64,000 bases of DNA. It comes from Rugalucina vietnamica (lineage: Eukaryota; Mollusca; Bivalvia; Lucinida; Lucinidae). Under the pieces are notes generated by a model. The model was not told the DNA's origin. It did not search any database and saw only the letters and a list, made by a program, of their open reading frames with translations. Of the stretch, positions 2,078 through 32,225 are shown piece after piece (positions within the stretch are counted from its first letter, which is position 1; every line of letters begins with the position of its first letter). Where the stretch lies: positions 1,828,501 through 1,892,500 of the forward strand of contig OZ024878.1 of the NCBI GenBank assembly GCA_964017185.1. The letters run 5' to 3'. Both the position numbers and the translations under genes were made by a program.

Positions 2078-5000
2078 ATATCTCATTGGCACAGCCCGTA
2101 TTTCCATGGTTATTTCGCTGTGGGAAATTCATATCCCTCCATACTAGGAGACATGCTCTCAGACGGTATCGGCTGCATTGGGTTTTCATGGGTAAGATAG
2201 GATTCGTATTCATATTATCTGCAATAATCTAATCAGTAATCAACATGCAGTGATTTATTTATTTTTCTATCTCTTTTTTGCACCAAAAATATAACTTCAA
2301 CGGCAGTAATCGGGCACGAGGTTTTATGACTTTCTTTGCCTCTGAACTGAAGGGACTCAACAGGCTACCGGTACTTTTCACAGAGATTGAATAAGTGGGC
2401 GCAGTTTGGTAGTCTGTATATTGAACATGCACATGTAAGCAGTGATCAGAAATTGTCGCAAACAGAACCAAAGTACCGTGAACCAAAACAGCTGTATCTT
2501 ATCTTTCATATACCTCTTGGTTTAAGACCACTTCACCACTTGATCGAGAAAAACATGGAGCCTGGAGTCAAACTACATGTCACCATTATCCAATCAATTT
2601 CCGTTTCAGGCCACAAGCCCAGCCTGTACAGAGCTTGAGGTTATAACAACTGACTGGCTGGGTAAAATGATGAATCTGCCAGAGGAATTCCTGCACTGTG
2701 GCCCGGGACCCGGAGGTGGCGTTATTCAGGTTTTGATTTAATCAAAGCTTATTGCATAAGTTGAAATGCTTTGACCGTGCTGCTTGATTCTGTGATTTTT
2801 ATATGATTTGTTTTTCAGATTTCTTAAAATATGCAATGCGATATTCTAATCAGGTACACAGGCTAGTCAAAAGCATGTCAACGTGCTTCACCTCGATTAC
2901 AAGTCTTCAAAATTTGACATTGTTTGTCGTATATATTAAAATGCTTCTAAATGATCTACATAGGCATTACCATTGGTACGCAGCTTCATATAGTCTCAAA
3001 TCCAACACAAAGAGTATTAACCCAGCGGGCACATGACGTCAGAATGACGTGCTGGGAAGGCGATTCTTTATGTATCTTGAGTCTTGAGAAGAAAATAAAA
3101 TACTTTATTACGATTAATATCAATATAAATATACCATTAATATTATAGGGTTATTGCACTGATATCGGTGAATATTGTCCCGAGTTGGGATATCGAAGGA
3201 CGCGAGCTTGCGAGCGTCCGTAGATATCCCAACGAGGGACAATATTCACCGATATCAGTGCGATAACCCTTTTATTATATAGCTATAAATATCTGCTTCT
3301 CATATTTGATGGTTTTTTTTAGAGTTAGCCTTCCAAAACTGAAGGCCGCGATAATATCCATTAAGTGATATCATTTTTGCACTAGTGCAATATCAGATGA
3401 TATCATTTTTGCACTGTTACTTTTCGGAAGCACATTTTGCAATTGAATCAATATTGCTGACATTTTCTTTTCTGTTTCCGGCTTAAATTGCTTAAATCTG
3501 AAAATGACAAACTTCAGCTGACGTTTCGGCCCGGTATGACGTCATTTTCCACGCGACGTCAGATGAAGATGACGTCATTAGAGTTGACGTCCCAATTTTA
3601 CAAGATGACTCTCAAGTCGATAATTTGGCAATGTTTCATCAAAAGAATTCATCTCATTTAACAAAGTGTGAAATATCAAGTAAGTGTGCAGATATCGTCT
3701 GATATCTGCACACTTGTTACTCGGCTTTTATCCCTAAGTTTTAATCATTTGATATTTATAGCTTTTTAATAAAATAGTATATAATACATTAACATGATAT
3801 TAATATAACAAAGGAGCAGCTCATTATGAAGAAAAGAGAATCTGTGAAGCTGAAAGAAAGTGCATAACATGCAAAGCTAGATTCAAAAGACCATCACCGG
3901 TTTAATCAAAATAGACTTGCTCCACTTGCCACCGACAGTATAGAGTTACACCCTATGGACGGTTTGCCTTTATTACGTCAGGATGAACATTTGTCACCAA
4001 CATGACAGGCATATGTACCAGACGGGTTTCGAACCCGCAACCTCTTGATTGCTAAGCGAATACGCTATCCATTACACTACCGCGGCTGTACGAGCAAACA
4101 TTGCCTAGTAAGCCATCAAAGAACTCACCAACACACATGAACAAACTAACAATCAAGAAATACAGATGGTCTTTCTCATTAGAGAGGAACGACCATCCAT
4201 ATTAATATTTAAGATGCATCGATGTTCAGCTCATTAAAAGTAATTATAAATTTAGTCCTCTGCAAGTGAAGCCGTCTTCCTATGCATGTTGGCTGCAAGA
4301 ACTAAGATGGTGACGAAATACAAGGCTCAGCACCCAGAGATGGATGAAATGACTATCATATCAAAACTTGTAGCCTACAGTTCAGATCAGGTTGGTAACC
4401 AAATTCAGATCCAGAATAAATAGATAAATAGATATCCTAAGATGCAGAACAATGGATTCTAGTATTACAGAAAGATACTGTTTGGGTCCATTTTCGGTTT
4501 AAGCACTAGAGGTGGGTGTGTTTTCGGTTAAAAGATTAAACAGAGCAACTCAGAGGTTTCCAGCTGGTCCATTACAAGTGAAAAGAACATTAAGATTCAT
4601 AAAACATTTGAGCGGTTTCCAGTGAAAGAATCACAAATCATTTGCCAGGTTTTCAGTTCTACAATAGATCATTGAAAAATCATTACACGTTACAGACGTA
4701 TAGGATATAACTAATTGGCATAATTGTTATGCGGTAGTCTGCATGCTTAGTTTTTAACCCAATCATGGTTGATAACTATGCTGCCTTCTTTAATTGCACG
4801 CCGGTGAGTCGGGCGTCAGACTCTATGATGGCCCCGACATAAAGCTATTCATTTTAGTTGGTTGGGGCCGGAGCTTCTTGTCTGTTGCTTGGTCCACCAG
4901 GGTTCAACTGGCGTTTTCCTTTTGCTCCGGAGTTAGTTAGTTATATGGCGCCCAGGAATCTCCATCGTCGGGCAGCTTACTCATTCTGCGAGTCCTTGTT

Positions 5001-8000
5001 TTTGATTCATCATGGTGGTTATCATGATTTATTTGTTTGTCCATGATGATTCATTGACTAGTTAGAGATTCACCACGAGGACCGAACTACTAACTAAATG
5101 TTGTGAACCACTGCAGAAGCTGAGGGTAAGGTTAAGGCACATTAAAATTAATTTAAGCCCGCCAGTAATTTTATATTACTGATCGTTCCAATGCGATACT
5201 TCTGTGGTGGTTCTTATTGTTTTATGTCTTGGTGTTAAAATTTTTGTGCTGTTTGCGCCTTATGTATGTTTTCATATTTTTAGTTAAGATTTGGTAACTG
5301 AGTGGCCACCTATTGGGAAAATAGCTGCTCATTAGGCTTACGATGTGTTTTCATGGTATACGGACCTGTTTGTTAATTTAGTTTTTTTCTCACCTCGGTT
5401 TTTGGAGTGGGATTCTCTTTCTGATTGCGCCTTTTCCTGATCGTTACCTGCTTGTACCTTTTAATATTTTTACAGCTGCAGAATAAACAGAACGTTTGAA
5501 GTATTTTCAGATATAGAATAAAAGAAAAAGATTATTTTAAGCGTTTTTAGGGTCACTGAAGCCGAAACCGCGGTATGGCCCATCCCCTTTCTCATTAATA
5601 TGTTTACGAGGGTGGGTCAGGAAGTTCTGTCATAGGTGTTATATTACGATAAATAGACATGATATGTTGCTGAATTATACATTTCTCCTTTATAATGATA
5701 CCAAACCCCTGCCCAAAAGAAATAAATAGTTTAAATTATCCGTCTTGAAAGACAGGTGGCGTAAAACCACAGGCATGTTTTCTTGAAATTGTGAACCTTG
5801 TATTGTGTCTTTCATGTGTTGTATAGTTATAACTACTGATCATATTCTCGTCAAATTTTAAGTGATAAATTATGTTTTATTTAGAAAAGCAATCCGGCAG
5901 AAAGGAATGTCACATGTGCGCTACTGACTGTATAATGAAGCGATTAAAATGACGTCATTGGAATATGTACCCCTGAAAATGCCAGGACAGGCCGATTTCA
6001 ACATTTCATTGTGTTATAAAACAATTAAATTAAGTTGTAAAAGTTTGAGTTTTGCAGGACATAATCACTCATATTCGAAGAATATATAGCACTTATGACT
6101 TTTTTTTTCAAAATCATTTACTGTATATTTTTACAGTGTTTTCTTTAAATCATGCCAGTGTCAGGGAGTCACCGCTTTAAAAGTGATTTATTATATGTTA
6201 TTCATGAAGAGTCACAAACAATTTTTATCACAGGTAATAGCTAAAGAAATGGTCTTCCAGATGTTGTTATTTTAAAATAGTTTGCAATGACAGATACCGA
6301 GTAATATATGGAGTGACAGATCTTTTTGACCGATCATCGTACTGCTATTAAAGGATCTGTTTTAATCTTTTATTAATATGTATTAGAATATAATAGATGT
6401 TATGATGATACTGATGTTGTCATATTCAATCACTCAAACTGTATGTAATTGTGAATAGTTGGCGGCTGAACTGTATATTTTGCCCTTTTAAGGGCAATTC
6501 CTCTGTGCATAGATCCGGGCTACTTGGTGCTGTGAAGATGGTGAAGCTACCCAGTGACAAAAACTTCAGTTTGAGAGGAGAAACATTACAGGCTGCGGTA
6601 GACAAAGATAAAGCTGCAGGACTGATTCCTTTCTTTGTAAGTGAATTTAGGGATATTTCAAGAGTAAAAGTAAGTGTCGTCTAGGTACGTGTGCAATCAG
6701 AACCAAGGTCTCACAAATGTGAGGAAATACCAAAACTTTCTCATTAATATGTTCTCATATCTTTTCTTATTAATATCTTCACTGCTCTTAAAGGATCTCA
6801 GTTTTATCTTTATTTCCTATTACTGCAGCTGGTGTTGTGCCGTGTGGCGGCCGTAGGAGGTCTCCCCGTACATCATCCATAGTGCAGATTATATTTTCCT
6901 TTTGGTTCTTTGAGATCAGCGCGGGTATTCTGAGAAATCAAAAAAAAATATTATCGGTTAAGATTCATTTTCTAACCCACGTTTTTAGATAGTTGGTCCC
7001 ATTTGAATTTTACTAGTCCTTGTATCGACTACCCTGTCGAAAGATGCAAAATTACAGTAATTCACTTTGGTTCCATGTTGCCAAATATATAGGGTCACTG
7101 AAGAGGCTTAAGTAGCCGAAACCGCGGTATGGTCCATCCCCTTTCTCATTAATATGTTCACTGCTCTTAAAGGTTCTCAGTTTTATAATTAACAATACAA
7201 AGATAATGTAGGCCCATCGATCGAGTGCAAAGCCTTTCCCAAACCATTGGAATTAAGCAACAAAAATCTAACTTAATAAAGATCAAGACACAAAATGATA
7301 AAATGACTCCAAAAGTGCTCTGATGACTTCTGATTTACCAATACCTGCTCCACCTGTTAAGAAAGAAATTTTATTCATTTTAACATTAAATTCAATGCAA
7401 TGCATGATTGAAAAAATCTCTTTGTCTCAAATTCAGACTACTGAGTAGTATTAAGATTTCGTTATCCAGTAGTAAATACCAGTTGTTTCGACATGTGGCA
7501 CCGACCATTATGACTGCATTTCCATTTGAAAATCATACAAGTGTACACTCTACCACTATTTGGATTAAACACAATTCGTTTTTATTCTGCCTCTATTTTC
7601 TTGTTCTCCATATTTGCACTTTCAACCATCATCATTAGAGCCGCATCGTGAGAAAACCGGAGTTTTGCCTAGGCGAAAACAAAGGCGCAGATCAGCTTCG
7701 CGGTAACCGCGAAGCTGATCAGCGCCTTTGTTTTCGCTATACGGATAGTACAATTCCTCTTCTTCTTAAATCTGAATTTTCAAGCTTCTAACCTGCTTCT
7801 GTGACTGTACAGGCCGGTTTGTGTCAGACCTGGTCGGAACCCCCGAAGACCGGTTTTCTCACGTCGCGGCTCATTAAACAATCATAACGATTTACATTAT
7901 TTTCCATTTAGCTCTGTGCATCTTTGGGAACAACGAGTTCATGTGCTTTTGATAATTTGACTGAACTGGGACCCATCTGTAAGTACTAGTATATATTTGA

Positions 8001-10548: not shown

Positions 10549-13500
10549 ATTAAAAGATACTGAACCTCATAGAAGAAGTCAAATTTTATATTTATGTATC
10601 ATATTTGCTTGCAAATTTCAGTACGCAGAAACATTCAGCACAAATCCACACAAATGGATGTTGATCTGTTACGATTTGTCGGTTATGTGGTAATAAACAT
10701 TTTAATAATCACCCTATCACACTTGACCACTTCTTCCAGTAGGGTCCATATAAATATCGAAATACACAAATTCGAAAAAATTGTTCTACCATTAATCTTA
10801 CAAATACCTCGGATCCAATAATAAATTTTAGATCCGAGCAAATACAAAACGCGCTGGAGAACACTGACAAAGTGTTGTCTGCCTATAATTTTTTTCACTC
10901 CACTGGTTATTAACATATGTTTTCCGGATTTTTTTTTCTTTTAAAAATTTCTTTGCTCTTATTGGAATTTCGCTAGTTTGCTGAGTTGTAATAGTTATGG
11001 TTCCAGGCTGTTTTGTCTTGTACTTTCCTTCCCGCCTGGTGTCTGAGTTCGAATTTTAAATTTAATTATACAATCTCTGGGATTTTTGTCGTACTTTTAA
11101 ATGACAAGAGCTTCTCTTGACATATTAAGAAATCAATCATATTTTGCATCGTGGTAATTTCAATGATGCCCATCAAGCATCTTACGTAGATATATGATAA
11201 AATTTCTGAGTAGCATGACCTCTTTCACAGACAGGCGACTTTCTCCAATTTGACTTATCTAGAGCTCTACACTTCTCTGCAAGAGTGTTTGGATAAACTG
11301 GTCATATATCATGAAATCAGCAGTGCTTTGTTTATATGTAACTACATGATAGTAAAAGAGTGATATTAAAAGCAGCAGAGTGGCTGTAATACTACCTGGC
11401 TTATAAGTAGATTTAAACTGAAGCTAATTAACTGCAAGAGCTATTGAGATAAAATGAAAATCGGAGGAATTTGAGAACCCCAAAATTGGGGGAGATTGGT
11501 GGAGAAAGTCGCCTGTCTGTTCATGCAAATTATGACAAAGTTTATGACAATAACCAGTTTTCATTGAAATTAAGATTCTTTTGAAAGTAATACTCCAATA
11601 GTAGGGATAACAGAATCTTACTGTAGTTGCTGTAACAGTTTCATGTGAAATGAATACTGTTACTACGTAATATCCTCTGTAGGATCAAGAATAGCTCATA
11701 CTTGGTGGACGCCTTCAACGTTGATCCTATATATCTGAGGCACGAGAATGAGGGCAGAGTACCAGACTTCAGGGTAAGTACACCTTCTACTGCTTTAGTG
11801 TGTATTTTGAGCCGCGACGCGAGAAAACCGGTCTTCGGGGTTTCCGAACAGGTTCGACACAAACCGGCCTGTACAAGCTCAGAAAAGAGCTAGAAGCTTG
11901 AAATTTCGGATTTAAGTAGAAGAGGAATTGTACTATCCGAGTAGCGAAAACAAAGGCGCTGATCAGCTTCGCGGTTACCGCGAAGCTGATCTGCGCCTTT
12001 GTTTTCGCCTAGGCAAAAATCCGGTTTTCTCACGATGCGGCTCTAATGATTATAAAAGGTCTTTGCAAATTCCAGTTAATGATTAAGGTGGTATTATTGA
12101 CTAAGAAAAATATCACTTCGAAAGAAAAGAAATGTCTGCACATATGGATATTGTCTCAGCTTTCGAAATGATGTGTATGTGCGTTTCATTAATGTTCATG
12201 TTTATTAATATTATAACATTCACTACACATTCAACATGTTTAGTACACGTCTGAATGTTTATTCTCACAGCACTGGCAAATCCCTTTAGGAAGGCGATTT
12301 CGCTCGCTGAAACTGTGGTTTATGCTGAGGTCCTATGGTGTAAAAGGTGTCCAGGAATTTATTAGAAGGGTAAAGAATTTATTTTTCAAAAGATCTAATG
12401 ACTGTTGACGTACGCACAAAACTCAAGTAACCGACATCTCGAAGTGTTTGACAGTGCTTCACAGTCCATGTTCCGTCGTAATCCTATGATAGCTATATCC
12501 ACGACAAACGTATATGAGACTACTTATGCATAGGAAAAGACATTTGATGCATTGGATCAATTTAAAAAAATGAAAGATAATGATATACATGTACGGTACT
12601 TGTACCCCATACTTTTTATATTTGACATTACGAAAATATGCCCATGCAATATACAGAGATTTTTAAAGTTGTAAAAAATGAAAATTTTCATAAGAAAATG
12701 TTTGCTATTTTTCTTATTTTTGCTCAAAACATAGATTGTGGGTACACGTTAAAACCGCCTCGCCGAGGCGGTTCTAACGAGTACCCACAATCTATGTTTT
12801 GGAGCAAAAATAAAAATAGGTTTACCCCTGCATACCCCAGTTTTACTATATAAAAGTGGGGTTTAAGGGGGTAAATATTTCACGGACATGTTTTCCTGAT
12901 GTATATTATGAGCTCAGTATGTCGCTTATACATGAATACTCCCATATCATCAATTTTCATGATTATTTCATTCGATAGCACTGCAGGCTGGCGAAGGAAT
13001 TTGAAGCTATGGTTCTAGATGATGACAGATTCGAGGTTGTCACTGAAGCAGTCATGGGTCTAGTCTGCTTCAGGCTAAAGGTAGGGTAATTGACTGATTT
13101 TCAACAGACAATATCGTATGCAGTTTCTGACTTACCAGGAACTTGTTATTTACATGTATATGGCAAGGTTTATATGAATCAAGTGTTGCTATGTGCTGTT
13201 TTAGAGAAGCTTGTGTATGAAAAGTATGATCAGCAGCTGGTGCATTCGTAACCAAAGTCCAACACAAAACAATGGATGTGTGAAAACCAAAATGAGAAAT
13301 AGGTACTGATACAAACAGAACACAATTAGCTGAGTGAACATCCTACAAACCCAAAAGGTGCACAAAGCCACAATTGTCGTTCTCTTTAATATTTAACATC
13401 ACAAAATATATAAAACGATATTGTGCTCCTTATATAACATCTAATGGTAAACAGTAGCGAGTTGCGCCCCCTGATTATCCGCTAGAGGCAGCACTAGACG

Positions 13501-16500
13501 CGGTCCTGTTTCCAGGAATCGTTTTCCAATAAACAATATGACTTCCCGGTTTGGAGAAATGAAACTTCCAGAATTAAGAGAAGAACTTCGTAAAAGAAAC
13601 GCCAAACTTGATGGGCGAAAGAAAGATTTAATTGAACGGTGTGTTTCCGTATAACAATCGTTTTTTTTCCCCAAGAATCAACACGAAAACGTTCGCTCCC
13701 GGCACAGTGGAATCTTGTCTGGGTCGAATTCAACCCGTTACCAATGCCCTTTTTTTCCAAGACATTGTCACAAAAATCAATTTATTATTGATCTCGTGAC
13801 CAATTGAAATAAAAAGAAGGATCGCATAAGTGTTTGTTTACGCAGTAACTAAGGAGACCCGATCAATTCAACGACAATACACACGTTTCGGCCCACGTAA
13901 ATTTTGAGCAAGATGGTTCGTTCTTCAGACGTAAGCGCCGAAATTTTGTCTTATTAAATTGCTGGTATCATTATTATACTGTCCGTTTTGTAATACACAT
14001 GATCCATATTTATCCTAAAATGAAATAGCTCTCTATATATATTATATAATTGGAGAAATAATTCTTTATATTTAGGGAGCTGGGGAGCTATGTTCCTACT
14101 ACCAAGTTGATCCTTTTTTTTTTTACTGTGTAATGAGACAATTAATTTCTGATCATTGCCTCAGGTACTGTGTAGATTTTTTGACTTGCTCAATGCCACA
14201 ATGAACGGCACCCCAGTTGAGGATCGAACCTGGGACCAGAGTCCTATACTCTTCTTCTGCGCCAGTCTGACCATTACCTCATAAGTTGTGATAAAGGCCA
14301 CAACAAATGGCATGCCAGGACCCAAGATCTCCGACCACTCCTGAGGCCAGCACTCTGCCACTGAGTCCAGCCCACTCCAATGAAAGCAATGTGGCCTTGA
14401 GGTAGCACATCAGAATCCAAATCAAGAGGTCTCGGGTTAATAAAAATCTGTTCCAATTTTTTATTGAACTTTTGGGACTGCTGGGACTCATCGTGCCCGC
14501 TACTCCAGGTCTTATTGGCCAGGGATACAAACTGCTTGTGTATTACGCCAGAGAAAATTAATTTTTTAAGATCCCCCCCCCCCCTCCGAATAGAACAAAA
14601 ATATATTTTTCAATACAAAATAAAGATAATGTGTAAGTTTCATTTATTTAATTGTCTCTGTGTTCTCTGAGATCAGAGAATCTGAATTAATTTTCTCTGG
14701 CCTTAACAGTATGAACTTCTCTTCCAGATTGGAAGCCTATGAGAGAAACAAGAATTTTGGGCAGCCAGACCTTACAGAGCCTGAATATAACATGGTTGTG
14801 CCAGATGGAAGCCTTTATAAGGATGTAAATGCTGACACAAAATTTTGTGACTTTTCTATGGACACTGTTGTTCACTATTTACATCAATTTGACAAGGAAC
14901 TTGACATTAAGACCATCCAAGAGTTTTATGATGACACAATGCTTAAATATTTCAGATTGGCATCAGAAAATGAAAAAATGTTTGTCAAAAGTGCCTGTCA
15001 AGCAGAATACATTAAATGTCGCGAGTACTTCATAGACATTGCAATTGACAAAGACGGGCTCATCATAGAATCCCAGTGTGATTGTGGAGGTGGCATGGGC
15101 CCAAACGGACACTGTAAACATATCTGTGTTGTGCTTTATGGTGCATATAAATTCTCACAAAAGAAAACTATTAAAGTGCAGGAAACATGTACACAGAAAC
15201 TTCAAACATTCCATCGAAGCAAAAGATTTGTTGGTAGCCCCCTGAAAGCCAACCAGCTGAATGTTCCAGGGGCAGACGAGATCACCAATGTGACATTTGA
15301 CCCTAGACCACCACACTACCGAGGAAATCCTGGATATCAAGATTTTTTCCGAAACACATGTTTAAATTTTTCTGGAGTTTCAACAATGCCTGTATTCCAA
15401 CTGTTTGAACCTGCAAATGCTTTGGCCATTGCTAAAGACCATGACTATCTAAAACTTACACCAGAGGATAATTTCTTAGAGAAACTTTGTGTAACTACTA
15501 TTTCTGAGCAAGAGAGGGTAAATGTAGAGGAAAGGACTCTGGGACAGACAGGGAATCCATTGTGGGCAGAAGAAAGAACAAAAAGACTTCCCTCTTCGCA
15601 GTTTGGAAGAATATGTAAGGCTATGTCTGACAATTCAAAAAGTGATAAAAACAAACTTATTCATTCTTTAGTTACTATTTCCCATATAAATGCACCGTCT
15701 TTACAGCACGGAAAGAAATATGAAGAGCTAGCTGTTTCTAAATATATGACAGACTTTGGACAAGAAGTAAAAAAGTGTGGAATAGTGGTGTGTCAAGAGT
15801 ATCCATTTCTTGCTTGCTCTCCCGATGGCATAATAGATAAGTCTCTCTTGTTGGAAGTGAAATGTCCATATTCTGCTAAGGATAAAATGATTACTCCTGT
15901 GACAGTACCATATTTGAAAATGAACGAAGAATCTAAATATTATCTGAACCATAATCATGATTATTATTATCAAGTCCAGGGTCAGTTACTTTGTACCGGA
16001 GCACAGAAATGTATTTTTGCTGTCTTCACAGGTGTGGACATTAAGTATGTTACAATTACTAGAGACAATGAATTTATTAAGGACATGGTTGAGAAACTGA
16101 AACTTTTCTTTAAAAATCATTTCCGACCAGCATTGCTTGAGAAGCGATTCTATAAGACATATATACCATAAAAAGTATTGTCATTGTGTTATTCTTTGTT
16201 TTACCAACAATATAAAGAAAACCAACAATTTGGGGGTCCGACCAGGTCTGATACAAACCGAGCTGTACAAGCACAGAAGATGATAGAAGCTTGAAATTTC
16301 GGATTTAAGAAGAAGAGATTGTACTATCCATGCAGCGAAAACAAAGGCGCTGATCAGCTGTGCAGTTATAAACCAAGGTTCCGTCTCCATATGAACTTAA
16401 TTGTTGATGGGATGTTAAACCCCAAATCAGTCAGTCATTCATTGTCCAAAACTTCTGAAAGTTGGGTACATGATAGATTTGAGCCTGTGCATGAGAAAAC

Positions 16501-19500
16501 CAACAATTTGCATATGCGAAAAACAAAGACGCAGATCAGCTGTGCAGTAGTATGCAAATAATTTAACAAAACTGACACTATGAAAATCTTGCATCATGAA
16601 AATATGTACTTAAACATTTTTCATGCTCAACTCAGCTGAGAATGATTATTTATCATGCTCTTCCACAATAAATGGCTACAGCTTATGAGATTTGCATATT
16701 TTAGATCACTAAAGAGGCAAAGACAGTCATTTATTTTGCTTGTTACAGTTAATTCAATATGTTGAATCTTATCCACCATAGAATTAAGACAATTTTCTGT
16801 TTAAGAACAAAGATAAATTTGACTCTGAGCTGAATGTAGGATGAAAAAGTCTATAATGTTATCATACATACATGTATTCAGACTGTACCATATGAATTTT
16901 TTCTCAAGCATGCTTTGGAATAATGCATGTTCTAAAATTGCACAGCATATAACAGCCAAAAATAATTTCTGCTGACATTTTTGTCTCAGTGCTAGTCATA
17001 GGATGACAAAGTATTTTGTAAGTCTTTCCTAAACCTATAATGCGTTCAATGTGAACCCGTTTACTAGATATCCGTCTGTCTCGTAAAATAACTTTACCAC
17101 TAAGTCTGTTTGTTTTCTTAAAGAAGGTAGGAATGTTAACGGTGACATCCTGGGAAGCAAACATATCTTGCACATTGAACCCTTTATCCGCCATAACTGA
17201 ATCTCCAGGGTCACACATTGAAACTATGTTGCATCTCTCAACAATTTGTCTGTCACTGGTAGAACCACCAAACACAGGGGAAATAAAAGATACGAGGCCG
17301 CCTGGCGTAGCTCCAATTAGTGTTTTCACAGTATTACGGTTTTTGTAGGTTGAGAAGGTTGACTGTTGAGCCCTCGGAGCTTTTGGCTTCTTGATAGGAC
17401 ACTCTGTTCCATCGATGATTACACGAGTGGTAGGAAACTTTGCCCTGAAATCTGATGGGTTAAAGTACCTTACTAGGCTGCGCGACGGCCAAATATTTAA
17501 TTCTTGCCACTGTCTGTGCATAAATAAAATCCAGGTGTAAACTATGTTTTTCACTGTCGCCTCAGATATATTGAACATTATCGATAACTCGTAATTAGTG
17601 GTATATCTCCTGAGTTTCATTAATGTTATAAAGAACTGATCCTCCACTGAAATTGTTACAATATTGTGGTAAATATAATTAAGGCAGTAAGCTGCTGGAC
17701 CCAGAGTACTTAGCACAAACATAACTTTGACATATGATTCCAAACCGGTGTAAAAATGTATAGCCTTATCATTGGATTTGAAATTCTGTAAGCTGTACAT
17801 CGGTTTTGGCTCGGTCTGTGTACTGAAGTCTCGTGGCATAAAAACTGGTTCTGCTGAGAAATCATAGACTGTTGAAGTTTCTCTGCTTTCAACTGTTACT
17901 TCAGACACATCAACAGGTACATGAATCTCCTGTTCCAACAGCTGAGCTACAGTTTCCTCTGCTTTTCTTTTCCTGGATGCTCTGTCTTGTAGCCGCTTCA
18001 CTCTGTCCTCCTGTAAGTAGGGTGGTTACAATATACTAGACTATTGATGCATGGCAATAAGTAGCCTGGAAATCTTACTTTTCAATATTTGATTATTTTA
18101 GATCAAAAACATAGAATGTGGCTACTTGTAAGAACCGCCTCACCCAGGCGATTCAAACGCATAGCTTTAATATATGTTTTGAGCAAAAATATAAAACTTT
18201 TTGTTTTCCATTTTTACAGCTATAAAAATCTCTTTTTTATTACATGGGTGATTTTTCGTAACTTGTACATGAAATTATTAAGAATTTGACCAGGGGTCTG
18301 ATATAATATACAAGTGTTGCTTTTTAAAATATGTACTTTTTTATGCAAGCAAAAACAGTTTTACCCAAACACCAGGATAACATGTCCGTGTAATATATAC
18401 CGCCTGGATTTTTTATCCAAAAAATAGATTGTGGGTACTCGGAGAGGCGGTTCAAATGTATATCCAAGATCAATATTTGATCAAAAATATAAAATATCAA
18501 AAAATGTGAAGAAATCATCAACTCTGTAAACAAAAAAAAACTCTGTATATTGCATGAGCATGCTTTCATAATGAACATTCTTTATGTGCATTAATATGTG
18601 CAAATTGCCAAATATACCATTACCTGCACATAGGCACACTGTTAATGATAATAATTGCAATTTCACTTTCCTGCAATGTCAATACTATCACAATAACCAT
18701 TTTGGACAAACATGATTTCCCTACCTGTAACGCAGCATTTGTCCGACTCCAATTAAAAATGGAAGGCACAGCTTCTGGCTTCAACTTCTGTTGTAAAGGT
18801 TTGCGACCTAGAAGTAGATAAACAATCAATGCAAGACATCTGCAAAACCGCCTTAGACAGAGGGTTCCTCAAACATCTATGTTTGGAAATCTGCCCCATA
18901 GGAATCACCGCATAAGAATCACCGGTATAGATGGTGAGTAAATAGAGATTCAGATTAATACATGTAGTTTCTGAGGAGAGCCAACAGAGGAGGAATTTTT
19001 ATTAAATCTTGTGAAGATTTAATTTATTTTTATTAAATATTGTGAAGATTTAATTAAAAAAATATTGGTCAACAATACTATTTTGAACAAGACATGCTCA
19101 GTTAATTGCTCAGTTAATTTAAGTTAATTCACATCATTCTTAATCACACAGGTTTCCAACACCCGTCGTTTGACTGCTGCAAAAAAATGTTTACTTCCTG
19201 GTTCTATCGAATTTATGTACCCATCGGAAATACCGAATTTTCACAAACTGACTCGCAGTTTTTACAATAACAGAAACGAAACAAATGTGATTTATTGCAA
19301 ATATAACATTAAGAAAATAAGTACAAACCATCTATGGTCTCGGAGACATAATCGCTGGGCGTGAAATGTGCTTTACAAACAACAGCCGTATCAGAAGGTT
19401 GCCAGTCTTTCCGGGTCACCTCGTCCACACGTTTCACGGCTCTAATCCATTTTTGTCTCACTTCTGGGTCAGCTGGGAACCTATGTCCGCCTCTCTTACT

Positions 19501-19969
19501 GCATTGCGGCACAGAACAGCACGTTGATGGCATAATTTCTCTCGTTTTAATCAGAAAATAGCTGTTTTTACATTTACTTCCGCGTTTCACTCTATAAATA
19601 AACAATGTTGCCAGGACCGCGTCATACTGCGCCACCTAGGCAGGGGAAACAACTCACTACTAAAAACCATTTAGGGGTCTAATAATAAGCGGAGAGTTAA
19701 AAAAACGTTATAATAAAGCAAAATCATCCAAGTTTATGGTCTCATTTCAGGGTGAAAACTTCCTAAGTGAGAAGCTGTACGATGAAATCCTAGCAGATGC
19801 AAGAATATACCTAATACCCGCCAGATCAGAGGATCTATATTTCCTCCGATTCGCCATTTGTGCAGAAAGAACAACTTCTGATGACGTCAAATTTTCGTTC
19901 AACGTCATCAAAACATGTGCAGACAGAATGCTGAGGCTTCCGTTCACAAAGACACAAGCCGCTGATTGA
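2078..19969 (+). CDS. Aromatic-L-amino-acid decarboxylase family (AMD/DHPAA-synthase-like), 5'-partial, 11 exons
   Basis: Exons read from GT-AG sites and reading phase: 2078-2191, 2610-2729, 4256-4390, 6493-6636, 7912-7978, 10197-10291, 10622-10689, 11683-11773, 12271-12369, 12979-13080, 19751-19969 (TGA). They join in frame to 417 codons. About 60-70 N-terminal residues expected for the family were not found to the left. Seen: SPACTELEV and GGGVIQ (exon 2), LGTT (exon 5), the PLP-binding HIDAAYAG (exon 6), the Schiff-base lysine motif NPHKW (exon 7), the catalytic-loop Tyr in DPIYLRH (exon 8), and [12 protein letters not shown] (exon 9). The Gly of PLGRR matches DDC-type enzymes; HDC has Ser there. 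In exon 4 the family's AHSSV motif reads GNSSV, so the PLP-stacking His (His192 in DDC) is Asn, as in insect AMD/DHPAA synthases. Family membership is secure. Substrate and reaction (amine or aldehyde product) are inferred. Confidence 0.92.
3148..3269. repeat. Near-perfect 122-bp palindrome
   Basis: GGGTTATTGCACTGATATCG at the left is matched by its reverse complement at 3235-3269. The inner part (TTGGGATATC, GGACGC) continues the pairing down to a short loop near 3210. It lies in intron 2 of the decarboxylase gene and abuts the palindrome-rich stretch to its right. Confidence 0.8.
3270..3776. mobile_element. Short inverted-repeat element rich in GATATC
   Basis: TATAGCTATAAATATC near 3283-3299 is matched by GATATTTATAGCT near 3751-3764, with TTTTATTA/TAATAAAA outside, suggesting terminal inverted repeats of a ~500-bp non-autonomous element. 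The interior has two TTTTTGCACT repeats (3370-3420) and a hairpin GCAGATATC...GATATCTGC (3686-3710). No coding content was seen. The boundary with the 3148-3269 palindrome is uncertain; both may be one element. Confidence 0.45.
3945..4092 (-). repeat. tRNA-derived SINE (minus strand)
   Basis: On the minus strand, a tRNA-like head from about 4090 down to 4020 has an A-box (TAGTGTAATGG) and a perfect B-box with T-stem (GCGGGTTCGAAACCCGT). The 3' acceptor strand does not pair with the 5' end, so a functional tRNA is unlikely. A tRNA-unrelated body continues to about 3945. Confidence 0.6.
4650..5460 (+). mobile_element. 5'-truncated Penelope-like retroelement, 3' end only
   Basis: This copy starts inside the last codons of the RT ORF seen at 32239-33267 and continues through the same 3' region. 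It ends in the shared tail (GAGTGGCCACCTATTGGG, then a terminal stretch ending CTTGTACCTT at 5460). It lies in intron 3 of the decarboxylase gene. Coding remnants have frameshifts. Confidence 0.75.
5550..5612 (+). repeat. Fragment of dispersed repeat D
   Basis: GGTCACTGAAGCCGAAACCG and CCATCCCCTTTCTCATTAAT match segments at 7085-7160 and 28012-28070. This is the short form, without the upstream half. Confidence 0.55.
6878..7190 (+). repeat. Dispersed repeat D
   Basis: About 310 bp matching 27797-28108: shared blocks TTATATTTTCCTTTTGGT, TGAGATCAGCG, ATTATCGGTTAAGATTCATT, CGAAACCGCGGTATGG and CACTGCTCTTAAAGG. A partial copy of its right end lies at 6740-6815, and a minus-strand trace near 39935-39990. 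No ORF; nature unknown. Confidence 0.6.
7638..7872 (+). mobile_element. MITE family A copy
   Basis: Ends are inverted: GAGCCGCATCGTGAGAAAAC at the left and GTTTTCTCACGTCGCGGCTC at the right. The core at about 7674-7738 is a 65-bp palindrome (GCGAAAACAAAGGCG, GATCAGCTTCGCGGT and complements) with one mismatch. The flanks share ATTA. It sits 39 bp upstream of exon 5 of the decarboxylase gene. Confidence 0.85.
8297..10140 (+). mobile_element. Penelope-like retroelement copy with an inverted terminal fragment at its 5' side
   Basis: 8297-8447 is the reverse complement of the family's 3' end: it contains CCCACTCCAAAAACCGAG and GAGCAGCTATTTCC, matching 33725-33880 read backwards. It is followed directly by the second half of the RT ORF (8461-9034) and the 3' region, ending TTGTACCTTTT at 10140. 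An internal 3'-region duplication is visible (CCACTGCAGAAGCTGAGGGT at 9426; CACTACAGAAGCTGAGGGCG at 9776). The copy lies in intron 5 of the decarboxylase gene. Confidence 0.75.
8489..9034 (+). pseudogene. 5'-truncated reverse transcriptase ORF fragment
   Basis: 181 codons open, nearly identical to the C-terminal two thirds of the ORF at 32239-33267. The upstream RT motifs, including GIPMGTNCAP, are missing. The YLDDLL motif is read just before 8489 in a different frame. The last ~70 codons of the intact ORF are lost through a frameshift after KKRNDFSFQ. It is a dead copy. Confidence 0.75.
10519..10542. repeat. Poly(T) tract
   Basis: An uninterrupted run of about 24 T in intron 6 of the decarboxylase gene, with no recognised element attached. 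Confidence 0.85.
11809..12043 (-). mobile_element. MITE family A copy
   Basis: Same termini as the 7638 copy (GAGCCGCGACGCGAGAAAAC / GTTTTCTCACGATGCGGCTC) and the same palindromic core (about 11944-12010), in the opposite orientation judged by the asymmetric GTACAAGC/CTTGAAATTTC arm. It begins 36 bp after exon 8 of the decarboxylase gene. Confidence 0.85.
12625..12900 (+). mobile_element. MITE family B copy
   Basis: A full-length reference copy. Left end ACATTACGAAAATATGCCC, right end GGACATGTTTTCCTGAT. The palindromic core at 12732-12797 is built on GATTGTGGGTAC and ACCGCCTCG/CGAGGCGGT. The asymmetric right arm is GTTTACCCCTGCATACCCC. Confidence 0.8.
13538..16171 (+). CDS. Transposon-encoded SAP-SWIM-YqaJ nuclease (ISL2EU second ORF)
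   Basis: Two exons, 13538-13638 and 14728-16171, join in frame to 514 aa; the junction reads IERLEAYER. Exon 1 is a short SAP DNA-binding motif (residues about 3-35: [19 protein letters not shown], then RKKDLIER). Exon 2 carries a SWIM-type zinc finger (QCDCGGG...GHCKH; CxCx(n)CxH, residues about 155-175) and then a YqaJ/lambda-exonuclease-like PD-(D/E)XK domain (about residues 315-490). Visible catalytic elements are HGKKYEE, SPDG, EVKCP and QVQGQL. Such proteins accompany ISL2EU transposases; their exact role in transposition is not established. The start codon is the first ATG inside the left terminus and gives the SAP motif. An in-frame ATG at 14660 is intronic. The gene converges on the transposase gene, leaving about 730 bp between stops. 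Confidence 0.85.
14160..14445 (-). repeat. Degenerate tRNA-derived SINE fragments
   Basis: In the nuclease-gene intron. On the minus strand, two tRNA-like heads are visible: GGACTCAGTGGCAGAGTGCT followed by TCTTGGGTCC (about 14380-14320), and GGTCAGACTGGCGCAG followed by the B-box CCCAGGTTCGATCC (about 14273-14222). On the plus strand, 14380-14440 has GTGGCCTTGAGGTAGCAC and CAAGAGGTCTCGGGTT, matching the SINE at 60568. The arrangement suggests fragments in both orientations. Confidence 0.5.
16205..16560. repeat. Partial MITE family A copies split by a SINE tail
   Basis: Between the two transposon genes. 16213-16372 holds one MITE A half (AAAACCAACAATTTGGGGGT through GCGAAAACAAAGGCGCTG). A SINE-like 3' tail (TTGTTGATGGGATGTTAAAC, about 16375-16440) follows, and then another MITE A left half begins at 16482 (GAGCCTGTGCATGAGAAAAC). 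No gene is seen here. Confidence 0.55.
16904..19533 (-). CDS. ISL2EU transposase: THAP zinc finger plus DDE domain
   Basis: Three minus-strand exons, 19329-19533, 18725-18807 and 16904-18010, join in phase to 464 aa. Exon 1 is a THAP C2CH DNA-binding domain: [11 protein letters not shown] at the N terminus, then W and CKAHF about 50 residues on. Exon 2 ends the THAP region with the AVPSIFNW motif. Exon 3 has a basic/coiled stretch, a helix-turn-helix ([17 protein letters not shown]) and a DDE_Tnp_4-like catalytic domain with IIDGTE, VMADKGF and HIERIIG supplying the D-D-E residues. No stop or frameshift interrupts it. The start at 19533 was chosen because it places the THAP Cys residues at the usual N-terminal position; an upstream in-frame ATG at 19635 would add 34 residues overlapping the terminal repeat. 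The intron at 18011-18724 carries MITE B pieces. Confidence 0.85.
18100..18560. repeat. Decayed MITE family B fragments
   Basis: In the transposase-gene intron. 18105-18190 has an eroded core (CATAGAATGTGGCTACTTG, AAGAACCGCCTCA). 18370-18560 has the opposite end (AACATGTCCGTG, AATAGATTGTGGGTACTCG). Both lack large parts of the family consensus. Confidence 0.5.
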
Positions 19970-21639: not shown

Positions 21640-24600
21640 TTACTTTTGAATGTATCGTTTATAAAATTTCACAGACCGTTCTAAAGATTCTTCACATGAA
21701 TACATTGGCGTGTAAGCCAGCAATGATTTTGCTCTGTCATATTTAAAACTATATGAATATAGCATCTGCTTTAAGCCTGATATACCCATGCTGACGTTTA
21801 TCTTCATAATAGGCGAAAGCATCCACAGTATAAAATAAACCACATGTAAAGGAATCAATAGTAGCCACATCGGCAGTTTGGAATTTTTCACAGGTATATC
21901 ACAACCTTGTGCAAACGGAGCCAGTATTTCGTAACTGTCAGCACACGGGGTATCATCAACTGCGTAGTATACCTCCCCATCGACATGGTTTTCAGTCTCT
22001 TCCACCCGCCCATTCCTCAGAGCTAGTTCAGCACAAAGGAACATCCAAGCCACATTGCCGGCGTATACCATCTGATGAGTAGCACATTTGCAGTCAAACA
22101 AGTGCCACCCTCCGAATCTCTTGGCGAGTTTAAATGCTTTTGAAAATACTACAATGTCCTCTTCTCCATAGATTGTGACTGGTCGTATAGCAACAGTTTT
22201 CAAATCATCACCTGGGGTAGTAAAGCATGTACTAGGCCTACATAATGAGACAAGCAAAGCGATATTCGAAAACATGGAAAAATGGATTGGCAACAAATAT
22301 GAAATCAAAATTATAAGTTTCGGTTGGCGTATAACATAAATGTATACTATATACACAGTACAGAGCCTATGGAGACAAAACTATGGTTAAATGAGTTAAC
22401 GAAAATTAAACAATATGAGTTAATTTTTTGTTTACGTTTGTTTAAACAACACTTTTTAAACCAATCAATGAGCATATCATTTAGATATTAAAATGGGCTG
22501 GTTTCCAGCCTACATATATAATCAATATTAGAAATACTGGTAACCAAAACCATCTTGACCTTCAGGTCTTTAGTACACTTGTTCTATTCATATAAAACAA
22601 AGTCTATCTTTAGTGGATGTACTTTCCATAACAATGATAAGCTGCTCTTTTGTCAAACAGCTGATCTCACAGCTGATCTCAATCTTTATTTTGTACTAAA
22701 AGGTCATGTTCCTGCTAGTTTATTTGCAATGGCTGATCACATGTAGATTTACAAAGGTACCTTTTTCATGGCCAATACAGGAAGTGTCACAGTGTCACAA
22801 GAGTACAAAGCTGTGTCACAACATAACTTATTTTAATGAACATTACTTTTTGTACAGTTACAGTAAGACAAAGAACCTGATCACCTGCTCAGTTGTAAAA
22901 AGCTGGTCTGGATCTTACAGTCTATAGGATAAAACAGATAATCAACTGATTTTTTCTTCAAGTGCTGTGTTTTGGAAATTGATTCATAGTTTGAGTGATC
23001 TTTCATCAGGACCCTTTTACTCGCTTTCGGCTCGTAAAAGGTCCTGATGAAAGGTCATTGAACTATGAATTAATTTCCAAAACACAGCACTTGAAGAAAA
23101 AATCAGTTGATTATCTATAACTTATATAAATCAATAAGATGTTCAAGCAATTCGGAGCATTCCTTTCAGGCCTGGAAGGAATATTTTCGGAAACAAGCAT
23201 TCAGTGAAAGATGTATGATAGGCTGGCCTTACATCTAAGATGCAAAAAGATAAAAAGGTACATGTAGGCAAAGATCAGGAAAAGGCGCAATCAGAAAAAG
23301 ATTCCCACTCCAAAAACCGAGGTGGGAAAAAAACAAACTAACAATCAGGTACTTATACCATGAAACATATCGTAAGCCGAATGAGCAGCTATTTTCCCAA
23401 TAGGTGGCCACTCAGTTACCTTAACTTAACTAAAAATATGAAAACATACATAAGGCGCCAACAGCACAAAAATGTTTTTATACACCAAGACATAAAACAA
23501 AAAGAACCACCACAGAAGTATCGACAAAGTTACTGGCGGGCTTAAACCGGTTTTACATGGCCATAACCTCACCCTCAGCTTCTGCAGTGGTTCATAACAT
23601 TTAGTTAGTTATTCGGTCCTCGTGGTGAATCTCTAACTAGTCAATGAATCATCAAGAACAAACAAATAAATCATGATAAACATCCTGATGAATCAAAAAC
23701 CAGGACTCACAGACTGAGTAAGCTGCCCGACGATGGAGATCCCTGGGCGCCGAATAACCTACTAACTCCGGAGCAAAAGAAAAACACCAGTTGGACCCGG
23801 TGGGCCAAGCAACAGACAAGAAGCTCCGGCCCCAACCAACTAAAATGAATAGCTTTATGTCGGGGCCATCATAGAGTCTGACGCCCGACCCACCGGCGTG
23901 CAATTAAAGAAGGCAGCATAGTTATCAACCATGATTGGGTTAAAAACTAAGCATGCAGAATAAAACAATGTAATATGTAGAAGTCAAGCATGATCAAATA
24001 TGAAAAAGTGTCAGAAAATGCTTACTATTTGCATTTATCACCATAGATTCGGCCCTTTGCTTTGATGTAGCATAGCCATTGTGAAGGGGTACCCTGGCAT
24101 GGCAGGTGTTAGATTCCGTCCCATCAATGATGTCGTATGTTCCCAACACGACGGACATACTGCTGCAGTAGATGAACCGTTTCACTCCCACCTCTTTACA
24201 TACTTCTAATAAGGCACATGTTCCTTTTTGAAAATAATGACATATTGAAATCACGCAGTAAATGAAAATGCAGCAATCTATCTAAGCATTCCGTTCTTAA
24301 TTGACAATAATATTATTTATAAGTGGCAAGAAATTGAGAATAATAGATCTATTATAAATGACAAGAAGAAACAAACTGTTCCAGTAAATTTGCTACAGGG
24401 ATACAATATAATAATCACATACATACCTTCAACGTTGACAAAATCCATTTTCTTTTCGTCTGGAAACATGGAATAGTCTACAATGCTGGCCAGATGGAAG
24501 ACTGACGCCACACCCCGACATGCTTTAACTAGTACTTCTCTATCGGTTACACTACCGGTAAATTGTATAACGGGCTTAGTAGAGACGTAGTCTAGAACAT

Positions 24601-25321
24601 ATAAGACTTTTGTATGAGTCGTCTCATAAGAAAACCGATAATCAGCTTATGCCTCTTTGTTTTCGCTACACGGATAGTACAATTCCTGTACTTTCTAAAT
24701 AAAAAAAATCCAGCCTCTAGCCATCTTCTGTGACTGTGCAAGCCGGTTTGTGTCAGACATGTTTTCTGGCGTTGCGGCTCGTATGTTTCTCGAATGACAA
24801 AGTTTTATGCGAAAACTAATCGAAAAACACAATGTAATTACATATCATATAAATACATACGAGTGCATAGCTATACACACACGTATTATCATAGTTCGCA
24901 ACCTATGTACCCGTATATGGCTTAGATCTTGCAAATGTAAAATTAAAAATGATACGTCTCTGTCTCTCTGTCAGTAAACCTCAGATTATAAGAATGGTCA
25001 GTTTCATTTCCTCCTATGACTGCCCCTAATCATTCAAAATTCTAAATCATGTAATAAATGTAACATCATGTAATAAATAAAGCTGGCTAAACGTATGTGA
25101 CATTGTTAAAATAAGTTTTATGATTGAAAAGAACACATTCTTATCCAAAGGGAAATGAAATTTATAGATGCATTACCTAAATTGTTTTCAAATGCCTTGA
25201 TATCCAGCACTCGTATTTCCGTCACGTGAGGGGCACGTGTCTGCAGTAAACCAATCAAATGTTGTCCTAGGCACCCTCCACCACCAGTTACCAAAACAAC
25301 GTTATCACCTGTCGATGTCAA
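21640..25321 (-). CDS. 3-beta-hydroxysteroid dehydrogenase/isomerase family protein, complete
   Basis: Four minus-strand exons, 25177-25321, 24427-24591, 24026-24223 and 21640-22211, join in frame to 359 aa, close to the usual 3-beta-HSD length. Exon 1 has the NAD-binding Rossmann turn TGGGGCLGQH. Exon 2 has VFHLASIVD. Exon 3 has the YxxxK catalytic pair in NGYATSKQRAES with an upstream SS (IYCSSM). Exon 4 has AIRPVTIYGE, VYAGNVAWMF, YAVDDTP, a hydrophobic segment (LPMWLLLIPLHVVYFILWML) typical of the membrane-associated members, and the C-terminal YSCEESLERSVKFY. The family oxidises 3-beta-hydroxysteroids or related sterols with NAD(P)+. The particular substrate, and whether it isomerises, cannot be read. 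The gene is convergent with the decarboxylase gene; its introns hold a palindrome, a retroelement copy and a MITE A remnant. Confidence 0.9.
22360..22930. other. Intron sequence without recognised features
   Basis: Part of intron 3 of the 3-beta-HSD family gene. Short open frames only; no repeat, motif or exon is recognised here up to the palindrome that follows. Confidence 0.5.
22934..23117. repeat. ~180-bp near-perfect palindrome
   Basis: ATAATCAACTGATTTTTTCT and TTCAAGTGCTGTGTTTTGGA at the left pair with their complements at 23066-23117. The arms run to a centre near 23030 (CGCTTTCGGC) with few mismatches. It lies in an intron of the 3-beta-HSD family gene, immediately followed by retroelement sequence. 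Confidence 0.8.
23257..23960 (-). mobile_element. Penelope-like retroelement 3' end, minus strand
   Basis: The reverse complement of about 33165-33886, including the final ORF codons and the whole 3' region (GGTACATGTAGGCAAAGATC at the 3' terminus). It is a 5' truncation lying 66 bp from exon 3 of the 3-beta-HSD family gene. Confidence 0.8.
24616..24780 (+). repeat. Deleted MITE family A copy
   Basis: Retains the left end (CATAAGAAAACCG), part of the core (ATCAGCTTATGCC, TTTGTTTTCGCTACACGG), the asymmetric arm and the right end (GTTTTCTGGCGTTGCGGCTC). Most of the core palindrome is missing. It abuts exon 2 of the 3-beta-HSD family gene. Confidence 0.7.
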
Positions 25322-27645: not shown

Positions 27646-28156
27646 GAGCCTGTGCATGAGAAAACCAACAATTTGGGTTTCAGACCAGGCCCGGCACCAA
27701 CCAGCCTGTACAGTCACAAAAACGGGCTAGAAGCTTGACATTTCTGATTAAAGAAGAATAGGGAGTGTACTATCCTTGTAAACAAAGGCGCCTTTGTGCA
27801 TAGTGCAGGTTATATTTTCCTTTTGGTCCTTTGAGATCAGCGAGGGTATTCTGAGAAATCAGAAATTTATTATCGGTTAAGATTCATTTTCTTGCCAATA
27901 TTTAATATATTTGGTCCCATTTAGATAATACTAGTCTTTGTTTCGACTACCATGTTGAAAGTTGCAAAATTTCAGTAATTCTCTTTGGCTCCATGTTGCC
28001 AAATCTAAAGGGTCACTGACGAAACTTTGATAGTCGAAACCGCGGTATGGCCCATCCTCTTTCTCATTAATGTGTTCGCTGCTCTTAAAGGATCTCAGTT
28101 TTAATTTTTATTTGTCTTCGCCTATGTAAATTGTTGGTTTCCCCATGCGGCGGCTC
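27646..28156 (+). mobile_element. MITE family A copy split by repeat D
   Basis: Left half 27646-27796 (GAGCCTGTGCATGAGAAAAC ... AACAAAGGCGCC). Right end 28109-28156 (TTTGTCTTCGCCTATG ... GCGGCGGCTC). Between them lies repeat D (27797-28108), matching 6878-7190. Repeat D therefore inserted into, or recombined with, the MITE's palindromic centre. Confidence 0.7.
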
Positions 28157-28497
28157 ATTTATCACAATTAATTGTTTTAAAACAGAGGTCGATAGCATTT
28201 GTGTAGACTACCCATAAAAACCATATAACAAATACACAACCTTGATATTGTGTTGACAATAAATCGGCTTCATTGTTCGCTTATTTTCAGGGAATAAAAT
28301 GATATTGAAGACTAATTCGGAGGAAGAACACTTGCTATCCGCGATATACGATAATAGCAGCACGAGATGAAGAAGATGATATGCTAACACGAGGTGAAAT
28401 GAAACCTAAAATCAAAACGAAGAGAACTGAGTACAAAATTCAAAATTTCGTCGATGGTAATAGAAACACAAGATAATGAGCACAATCAAGTGATATA

Positions 28498-30858
28498 ATG
28501 GACCAAATGGAAAGTGTACATGTGGTTACGCCATACGCCATTGCTTTATATCCTTTCAAAGGTGAGTTAGATGATGAACTTTCATTTGTGCCAAATGACA
28601 TTATACTTTTAACTAGTCACGTTGACGATAACTGGTTAGAAGGAGAAATTGATGGTAAAATTGGAATCTTTCCTGCTAATCACGTGGTGATACAGATAGA
28701 TTGTAACAACTCAGAATCAGCAGACATCTCGTGTATAACTTCAGAATCAGCAGGCAGTCTCAAGGCTAGCGCGCCAAAGGCTTCTAAACGAGAGTCGAAA
28801 TTATCAAAGTCCTTTCCAACAAACCCATTTGTTAAGGATTGTTTTGACAATGACATAGGATGGAACAAACCCCCGTGTAGGAATTTACATTCCTCAGCTA
28901 CTTGGACAGCATTATTTGATGATGGACCTACGCTTAATTCAGTAGGAAACAGGACGGATCCTTGGTTGAGTTTCGATTCTGGACCAGATTCTTCCAACAA
29001 CTTAAAAGGCTCTTCGACCAAGAAATCATTTCTGAAGTCATACTCTGTTCCGGCAAGCTTTGCTGTAGAAAAGCCAGGAGGATCTGAACGGAAACCATTT
29101 ATACTGAAGAATAAACCAGCCCCTTCAGCACCTTGGGTAGTCCCATTCTCGTCTCCATCAAATGACCCTTGGAAAGTGTCTGAAAATTTATCCCAACCAG
29201 TGCCAAAACCAAGACCAAAGTCATGCAAATTGTCAACATCAGCTAGTGACAAAAGTTCGACACCTAAAGATAATGCGGACAAATTATTTGGAGAATTTGG
29301 ATATGCTGCCACAAAACTATTTAGAACTATTTCTATTAATACAAACAATGACCCTAGTCACAAGGAAGCAACTATTGGAAATGACGTACAAACACTAGAT
29401 CCAACCACAAAACTTGGTAAGCCGTTTGATTTGTATTTTTGAAAAGATAAAACTATCTTTAGAACGAAACTATGGCGAGAAAGCTGTAATCAGTAATCTA
29501 AATACGAATCCCATTTATTTATTTCAAATATCTAAATTACTCTCCAATCAAATTTCAAGAGCATTCAGTCATACGATAATACTAAACTGAAAGTAATTAT
29601 ACAAGTAAATAAAATGAAAGGAAACTTAATGACAAGTCTAATCTGATTATATTCAGAACTGATAATTAGACGGAGAGCATGTTGAGTGTGACATCCTGTA
29701 AGTAATGAAGATCATACATTTGTATTTCTATCGAAAGGCATGCTGCAAAAAAAATACGATCGTTCTGCGACTAATTTGTTTTCCTAAATCTAAGGATGAG
29801 GTGCCGTCTCCTTACTAAATAATAATATGAAGAAACACTGTAACGCCCAATCACCTAATTATTAATGGCATTCTTTCGTTTCAGCAACTAGTCCTACCAG
29901 TGACAATGTAGCAAGATCAAAATCCTATGCAGCCGGAGACGATGGTAAGCTGAAAGATATTGTTAAGGCACCGAGGCCTGTTCCAAGACGGCGAACTTCT
30001 GATAATATTGCAGTTGTAAAGGAAGACACAACCAAACAAAACACGAGTGGTCTCGCTCCAGTTCCAGCGCCAAGAAGAAGTATCCAGACGCAAAGTGAAA
30101 GAAGAAACATTCCTGTTCATACTCCAAATGCAGATAAGAACAAGAACTTAATAAATCATTCCATACACACAGAAGAACCTGTTAGAAGTAATAGAACTCC
30201 TTTACCAGATAATTTACTTCAAATTACTGAAAAACTTACACCCAACAGAGATGAAGCCAATGTCAAATCAACTACAGTAATAGATATTGAGAACCCTATT
30301 ATAGCTAATACTGAGATAAGTGAGGATATTTACTCAGAAATCGTTACTGAAACAGCTGATGATTATTATGCCGTTATTGAACAAAGTTCAAGTGAAAATG
30401 TGTATACGGATATGCCAACATTGAATTGTGACTCAGAATCAGTTGCAGATAAGTTTAAAACTGGTAAAACCACAATAATTATCCCGCCGCCTCCATTATC
30501 AAATCGACATAAACATGCACAAAAGAGTGTAGCAGCAGATACCTCGAGGGTCAGTCATTCGGACGCGGGGTTTAGAGGTGAATATGGCACTATCGAAAAC
30601 GTCCCAATTAAGAGCCCTACTTTACTTACACTAAAGGATACAGAGGATATAATTGATCCTATCAATTCCAATTCTAAACTTGAAACGGAAAAATCGACTT
30701 GCGAAGACTTTTACAGTGTCCCAATAAATAGAAGTGAAAATGAAGAAAACACTTACGAAATGATGTGGCCTGTACAACAAACCACAACGGAAATAATCAT
30801 TCCTCCTCCACTACCACCGAAAAAGCGGCCACTCAGCTTCAAAACATGGAATATTTAA
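28498..30858 (+). CDS. SH3-domain adaptor with endocytic and tyrosine motifs, 630 aa
   Basis: Two exons, 28498-29416 and 29885-30858 (TAA), join in frame to 630 aa. Residues about 14-66 form one SH3 domain with canonical ALYPF, DDELSF, WLEGE and GIFPAN elements; the usual Tyr after FPxN is His. The rest looks unstructured and carries short motifs: NPF (109-111, EH-domain ligand type), two DPW (154-156, 223-225, AP-2 appendage type), three PxPxPR-like sites (about 234-239, 335-342, 364-370, CIN85/CD2AP SH3 type), and C-terminal polyproline PPPLPPKKR (613-621). A tyrosine cluster between 455 and 600 includes YAVI, two YxxM sites (YTDM 480, YEMM 597) and YSVP. The set suggests a signalling or endocytic scaffold (inference). 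No orthologue is named. The ATG at 28498 was chosen because it directly precedes the SH3 domain; nearby upstream in-frame sequence has stops. Confidence 0.85.
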
Positions 30859-31677: not shown

Positions 31678-32225
31678 GTCTTAAGGCACTGTGTAGTCAC
31701 CTCTGGCATTGAATCATTCTGCCAATACGCGTGTTGGAATATCATCAAACAGTTTTTCGTGATTTGTTTTTTTTTCGGCACAGAATACTAGTACCATAGA
31801 GGACTGGAACTTTCACAGAGAACCTTTTTTATTGTTAGGCTATCTCTCACAACTCATCTTTATAGCATTTCAACCCTCTTGTGTACGGTTTGGTTTAAGT
31901 CAAGGGAATCACAGGACATTCAAAGACAGACGTTCCTCTAATATCAAGAATCTGTTTTGCGGATTTAGAATTAATACAAAGAACATTGCCTTTCATAAAT
32001 ACTAATTCTTTTCGCACTCTTTATTAGCATGTTAATTTCCATGACTTAAACCCTATAGAAGGGGTTTAGAATATCATGAAGAGAGGTGTGAGTCATTGCC
32101 TGTCAATAAATTTAGCACACTATGGTATTCTGTGTGGAGGAACAAATCATGAAAGTATATGATGAAATGCCAACCCACGTTTTGACGGAATATCGAAGCC
32201 AGAGGTGACTCGACAGTGCTTTAAG
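31678..32225. repeat. Fold-back element with ~200-bp arms
   Basis: The left arm starts CTTAAGGCACTGTGTAGTCA. The right arm ends with the complement (GTGACTCGACAGTGCTTTAA). Pairing extends through GTTGG, the ACAGAATAC block, CTCTCACA and GGGTTTAAGTCA, with mismatches and small indels, to a loop near 31920-32025. It stops 14 bp before the RT ORF. Confidence 0.7.

Follow-up and report, generated by a model that had tools for sequence, protein, structure and literature searches.

A probable full-length ISL2EU DNA transposon with two open spliced genes in the last intron of a decarboxylase-like gene of Rugalucina vietnamica

Analysis of a 64-kb stretch of Rugalucina vietnamica DNA (64,000 nucleotides in full, hereafter the window) placed an apparent ISL2EU element of 6,223 bp at positions 13446-19668, within the last intron of a decarboxylase-like gene and with its nuclease gene in the same orientation as this host gene (Table 1). 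The two host exons flanking the element join in frame, in agreement with an initial annotation which had located the element in a host intron. Their joined product, corresponding to the C-terminus of an aromatic-L-amino-acid decarboxylase, gave a gapless alignment to the aromatic-L-amino-acid decarboxylase 3k40 (E = 1e-19), and all 15 distinct sequences matching it at E up to 0.01 were decarboxylases or related synthases by name. Two neighbouring coding stretches of the window were matched by Pfam: 21643-22380 (- strand) to the 3-beta hydroxysteroid dehydrogenase family, encoding part of such a protein (E 3.2e-18), and 28480-29439 (+ strand) to an SH3-domain protein (E 2.5e-12).

Table 1. Features of the element, its host gene and the related repeat copies (positions are those of the window).
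Feature	Position	Strand	Basis or remark
Host exon, aromatic-L-amino-acid decarboxylase-like, preceding the intron that holds the element	12987..13080	+	in-frame join
Left AT target site duplication	13444..13445	.	context CTA|AT|GGT; fits the A|AT|T rule (PMC4482050)
Left terminal inverted repeat core, GGT start	13446..13464	+	gapped homology to right end until about 13508
12-bp block, left copy, identical to right copy	13497..13508	+	candidate transposase-binding site
Nuclease exon 1, most of SAP domain	13538..13638	+	splice model and profile match
Nuclease exon 2, SAP end, SWIM-like CxC..CxH motif, YqaJ domain, stop included	14728..16171	+	
Rearranged MITE-like repeat, nested in the gap that separates the 3' ends of both genes	16216..16549	.	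pieces 16216-16368, 16477-16549
Transposase exon 3, HTH_Tnp_4 and DDE_Tnp_4, stop included	16904..18010	-	splice model and Pfam
Two diverged repeat pieces, transposase intron 2	18086..18573	.	pieces 18086-18261, 18408-18573
Transposase exon 2, THAP end	18725..18807	-	splice model and profile match
Transposase exon 1, start codon and most of THAP domain	19329..19533	-	splice model and profile match
12-bp block, right copy	19612..19623	-	shared-word comparison of both ends
Right terminal inverted repeat core	19650..19668	-	pattern and end comparison
Right AT target site duplication	19669..19670	.	context ACC|AT|TTAG
Last host exon, decarboxylase-like gene, stop included	19751..19969	+	in-frame join
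MITE-like family copies	7704-7843, 11843-11977, 24655-24761, 27659-27791, 45492-45647		
MITE-like family copies, continued	45984-46096, 46407-46539, 58119-58251, 59208-59342, 61555-61709		

The nuclease gene consists of two exons separated by a GT-AG intron and encodes a protein of 514 aa without internal stops. Pfam searches revealed a SAP domain at residues 5-40 (E 3.7e-10) and a YqaJ domain at residues 313-460 (E 6.1e-18), both above cut-offs, and a Viral_alk_exo match narrowly below its cut-off (19.9 vs 20 bits); the match to the NCBIfam lambda-exonuclease model lay beneath the curated cut-off. A CxC...CxH motif at residues 151-165, unreported by Pfam, looks like a SWIM finger. The protein aligned to lambda exonuclease (1avq) and to related solved nucleases including protein R354, presumably a mimivirus protein, and its residues E366, D400, E410 and K412 were aligned to identical residues of lambda exonuclease which we take to be catalytic. 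With exon 2 as query, no pattern stretches were obtained in viral contigs and none of 28 stretches was confirmed in prokaryote genome contigs, while 227 phage records matched this exon, every one with less than 60% identity; the best 20 of these 227 were annotated exonucleases at a query coverage of 45-48%.

The transposase gene comprises three exons on the opposite strand, both introns being GT-AG, and encodes 464 aa, again without internal stops. THAP (residues 6-86, E 3.3e-16), HTH_Tnp_4 (residues 217-261, E 1.7e-12) and DDE_Tnp_4 (residues 295-454, E 8.6e-35) were all detected by Pfam, the last over its whole profile (1-158 of 158), and DDE_Tnp_1 was narrowly over its cut-off. As read from the motifs, D296, D371 and E418 are the likely DDE triad. 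The NCBIfam IS5 transposase model matched beneath its curated cut-off, and a single-sequence structure model of exon 3 reached a mean pLDDT of 36.5. Neither of two pattern stretches of exon 3 was confirmed in viral contigs, nor was any of nine in prokaryote genome contigs.

Joining of the exons strengthened both matches: SAP rose from 38.2 to 44.1 bits as its coverage of the 37-position profile grew from 2-31 to 2-37, and THAP from 48.6 to 64.4 bits as coverage of its 87 positions grew from 1-61 to 1-87. That both domains reach their profile ends once the exons are joined supports the first junction in either gene, and the reading frame is maintained across the second junction of the transposase. 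An unspliced nuclease translated from the open frame just upstream of exon 2 is a possible alternative gene model; a profile search of that frame gave no SAP match. The two convergent genes of 464 and 514 aa predicted in the initial annotation, and its splicing model, were supported; the three acidic residues that it saw in the transposase are here candidates placed by motif.

Both ends of the element start with GGT, and an AT borders each of them. With CTA-AT to the left and AT-TTAG to the right, the site before insertion would have included A|AT|T. The 19-bp cores of the terminal inverted repeats (TIRs) match at 14 of 19 positions, and the next ~40 bp of both ends can be aligned with gaps only. 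Local alignment of the inverted ends (101 bp each) nevertheless scored 23.5, whereas the scores of 500 shuffles averaged 8.75 and rose no higher than 15, and the longest word common to both ends was 12, a length reached in none of 200 shuffles (10 at most). The matched terminal repeats previously proposed for a span of 13443..19674 were hence confirmed above the level of shuffles, with the boundaries refined to those given above. In the 64-kb window, the TIR pattern matched the two ends of the element and nothing else; this search is no independent test, because the pattern was built from these same two ends, and at three mismatches two or more matches were also seen in 5 of 100 shuffles. The CpG observed/expected ratio was about 1 near the ends (1.18 and 0.98), 0.32 in nuclease exon 2, 0.38 in the gap between the genes and 0.66 for the window.

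At E up to 1e-3, sequence of the element that recurs elsewhere in the window was traced to two places of the gap (16215-16549, 16618-16645), to 18079-18574 within transposase intron 2 and to a single place of the nuclease intron, 14385-14438, but to no exon. The nested repeats therefore lie outside the exons, as initially annotated, and the SINE nature ascribed to some of them gained no support from ARAGORN, which detected no tRNA in the window. The MITE-like family, a rearranged copy of which lies in the gap, has at least 10 other copies in the window, and a second copy of the element's coding parts was not detected there by blastn (to E 1e-3) or tblastn (to E 1). Three identical 68-bp matches to Rfam SECIS_1 (37.4 bits; gathering 35) at 4817-4884 (+), 23813-23880 (-) and 33242-33309 (+) fall within copies of one repeat. 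The last of these overlaps the end of a TAA-terminated ORF at 32209-33267, which has an in-frame TGA immediately ahead of its listed start and looks like a reverse transcriptase, with no Pfam match. Some Penelope-like retroelements carry selenocysteine codons; a literature search on this subject found nothing.

The nested pieces were compared with leave-one-out consensuses of 3 to 10 window copies each, copies with a match below 100, 90, 90 and 50 bases being excluded (e.g. a 76-bp match at 53584-53659). Differences were found at 15/136 (10 other copies) and 2/59 sites (4) for the gap pieces, and at 37/168 (4) and 41/164 sites (3) for those of intron 2, i.e. 3-25% for the nested pieces and 4.5-16.4% for other repeat copies in the window. 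These differences (2/59 to 41/164) argue against a simple young, clean copy; as dating evidence they are weak because of the 2/59 piece, the small copy number and unresolved repeat subfamilies.

Neutral decay of both coding sequences was simulated in 1,000 runs per setting, assuming half transitions and, where indels were included, 0.1 indels per substitution of which 80% were frame-breaking. When indels were allowed, the share of runs that kept both ORFs open was 49.6% at 0.2% decay and fell to 3.0% at 1% and to 0.1% at 2%; when they were not, it was 27.1% at 1%, 10.1% at 2% and 2.4% at 3%. At 5% decay, both were open in 1/1,000 runs without indels and in 0/1,000 with indels. Together with the divergence of the nested repeats, the simulation makes it unlikely that the genes have been neutral here for as long as most nested pieces look old.

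There is thus a tension, resting on weak dating, between nested repeats that have diverged and two genes that have stayed open. Recent insertion or selection is a plausible account of the intact genes: either earlier copies carried the repeats and the present copy is younger, or selection kept the genes at this locus. We prefer the first, and consider it somewhat probable that the old-looking repeats were acquired by earlier copies and carried along during movement. Compatible with this explanation, and adding to it solely a young age, is a very recent insertion (less than about 1% decay) from a family that is still mobile and whose own sequence includes the nested repeats, to which we give an even chance. 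The two open ORFs, the exact target site duplication (TSD) and the full set of catalytic and DNA-binding domains favour such an age, as does the rate at which both ORFs survived 0.2% and 1% decay in the simulation with indels, but the element's two ends are not closely similar.

Improbable, by comparison, is an old insertion at which host selection has kept both genes (a two-gene domestication) with the element's own terminal repeats still attached, the same improbable reading having introns, gap and terminal repeats decay meanwhile. The divergence of the gap and intron 2 pieces would fit such a history, as would the near absence of open ORF pairs at 5% simulated decay, the imperfect terminal repeats and the low CpG ratio of nuclease exon 2 relative to the window. 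However, the AT duplication has remained exact and so has the GG at either end, two separate genes and both ends would have had to persist, and repeats that were carried along account for the same facts; moreover, one nested piece is merely 2/59 from its consensus, and the consensuses derive from 3 to 10 copies, with the other copies themselves differing by 4.5-16.4%.

Judged from its termini, TSD and domains, the element is very probably a full-length ISL2EU (PHIS superfamily) DNA transposon, as the initial annotation had named it, and potentially an autonomous one. ISL2EU elements are described as having an AT TSD in A|AT|T, TIRs usually starting with GG, a THAP/HTH/DDE transposase and a YqaJ second ORF (PMC4482050), and these four features were all found here. 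The assignment as full-length follows from the termini, the AT duplication and two spliced genes that are open and encode complete catalytic domains. Counted against it are the 14/19 TIR match, the gapped inner ends, the old look of most nested pieces, the low pLDDT of the structure model, the DDE positions read from motifs only and the sub-cut-off NCBIfam matches to IS5 and lambda exonuclease. THAP domains occur also in P-type and some other transposases, but membership of another THAP-bearing superfamily (Kolobok or P) is exceedingly improbable in view of the DDE_Tnp_4 and HTH_Tnp_4 matches, the IS5 match and the YqaJ partner gene. Kolobok, with a TTAA TSD (PMC9587614), was rejected as the flanks are AT/AT, and P was set aside on TSD and domains.

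A scenario consistent with this anatomy would begin with insertion of the element at an A|AT|T target in the decarboxylase gene's last intron. The THAP/HTH transposase would bind the terminal repeats and probably the shared 12-bp inner block, and its DDE domain would cut the ends and join them to target DNA opened by cuts staggered by 2 bp. The SAP/SWIM-like/YqaJ protein may be a lambda-exonuclease-type nuclease with a putative DNA-binding domain of its own that acts as an accessory factor; held on DNA via SAP, it would perhaps trim or recombine the broken ends of the donor site, such that repair keeps copies. The nested repeats would have been acquired by earlier copies, selection during propagation keeping the genes open.

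The function of the second ISL2EU gene is described as unknown (PMC4482050), and intact two-gene copies are material for asking what role the YqaJ nuclease has in transposition. In a clam genome, expanded YqaJ domains were placed under endogenous viral elements (PMC7826175), and in a scallop the YqaJ, THAP and HTH_Tnp_4 families were grouped among transposition-related genes (PMC10225492). The anatomy of the present element suggests that such YqaJ genes may instead be parts of ISL2EU transposons.

Among known systems, PIF/Harbinger elements share a related DDE transposase and the two-gene layout with the element, but their TSD is TWA, of 3 bp, and their second gene is of the Myb/SANT type (PMC4482050); this group was rejected in view of the AT TSD and the SAP/YqaJ second gene found here. 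The YqaJ-type lambda exonuclease and protein R354 have the same nuclease core and catalytic motifs as the element's nuclease, which differs in being encoded within a transposon and in having SAP and SWIM-like parts ahead of its nuclease domain. The N-terminal SAP domain and the SWIM-like motif are unmentioned in the main text of PMC4482050, and SAP is likewise not mentioned in that of PMC9179366; newness of the SAP domain does not follow from such main-text silence. In a literature search on YqaJ, SWIM and SAP domains, YqaJ and SAP occurred together in none among the matches listed. At 6,223 bp the element exceeds the mean of about 4,840 bp given for autonomous ISL2EU elements (PMC4482050), the nested repeats being part of the excess. 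In its AT TSD, GG termini, transposase domains and YqaJ gene it is like the ISL2EU group as described there, and it is a good example of this known group of animal transposons, not a new kind.
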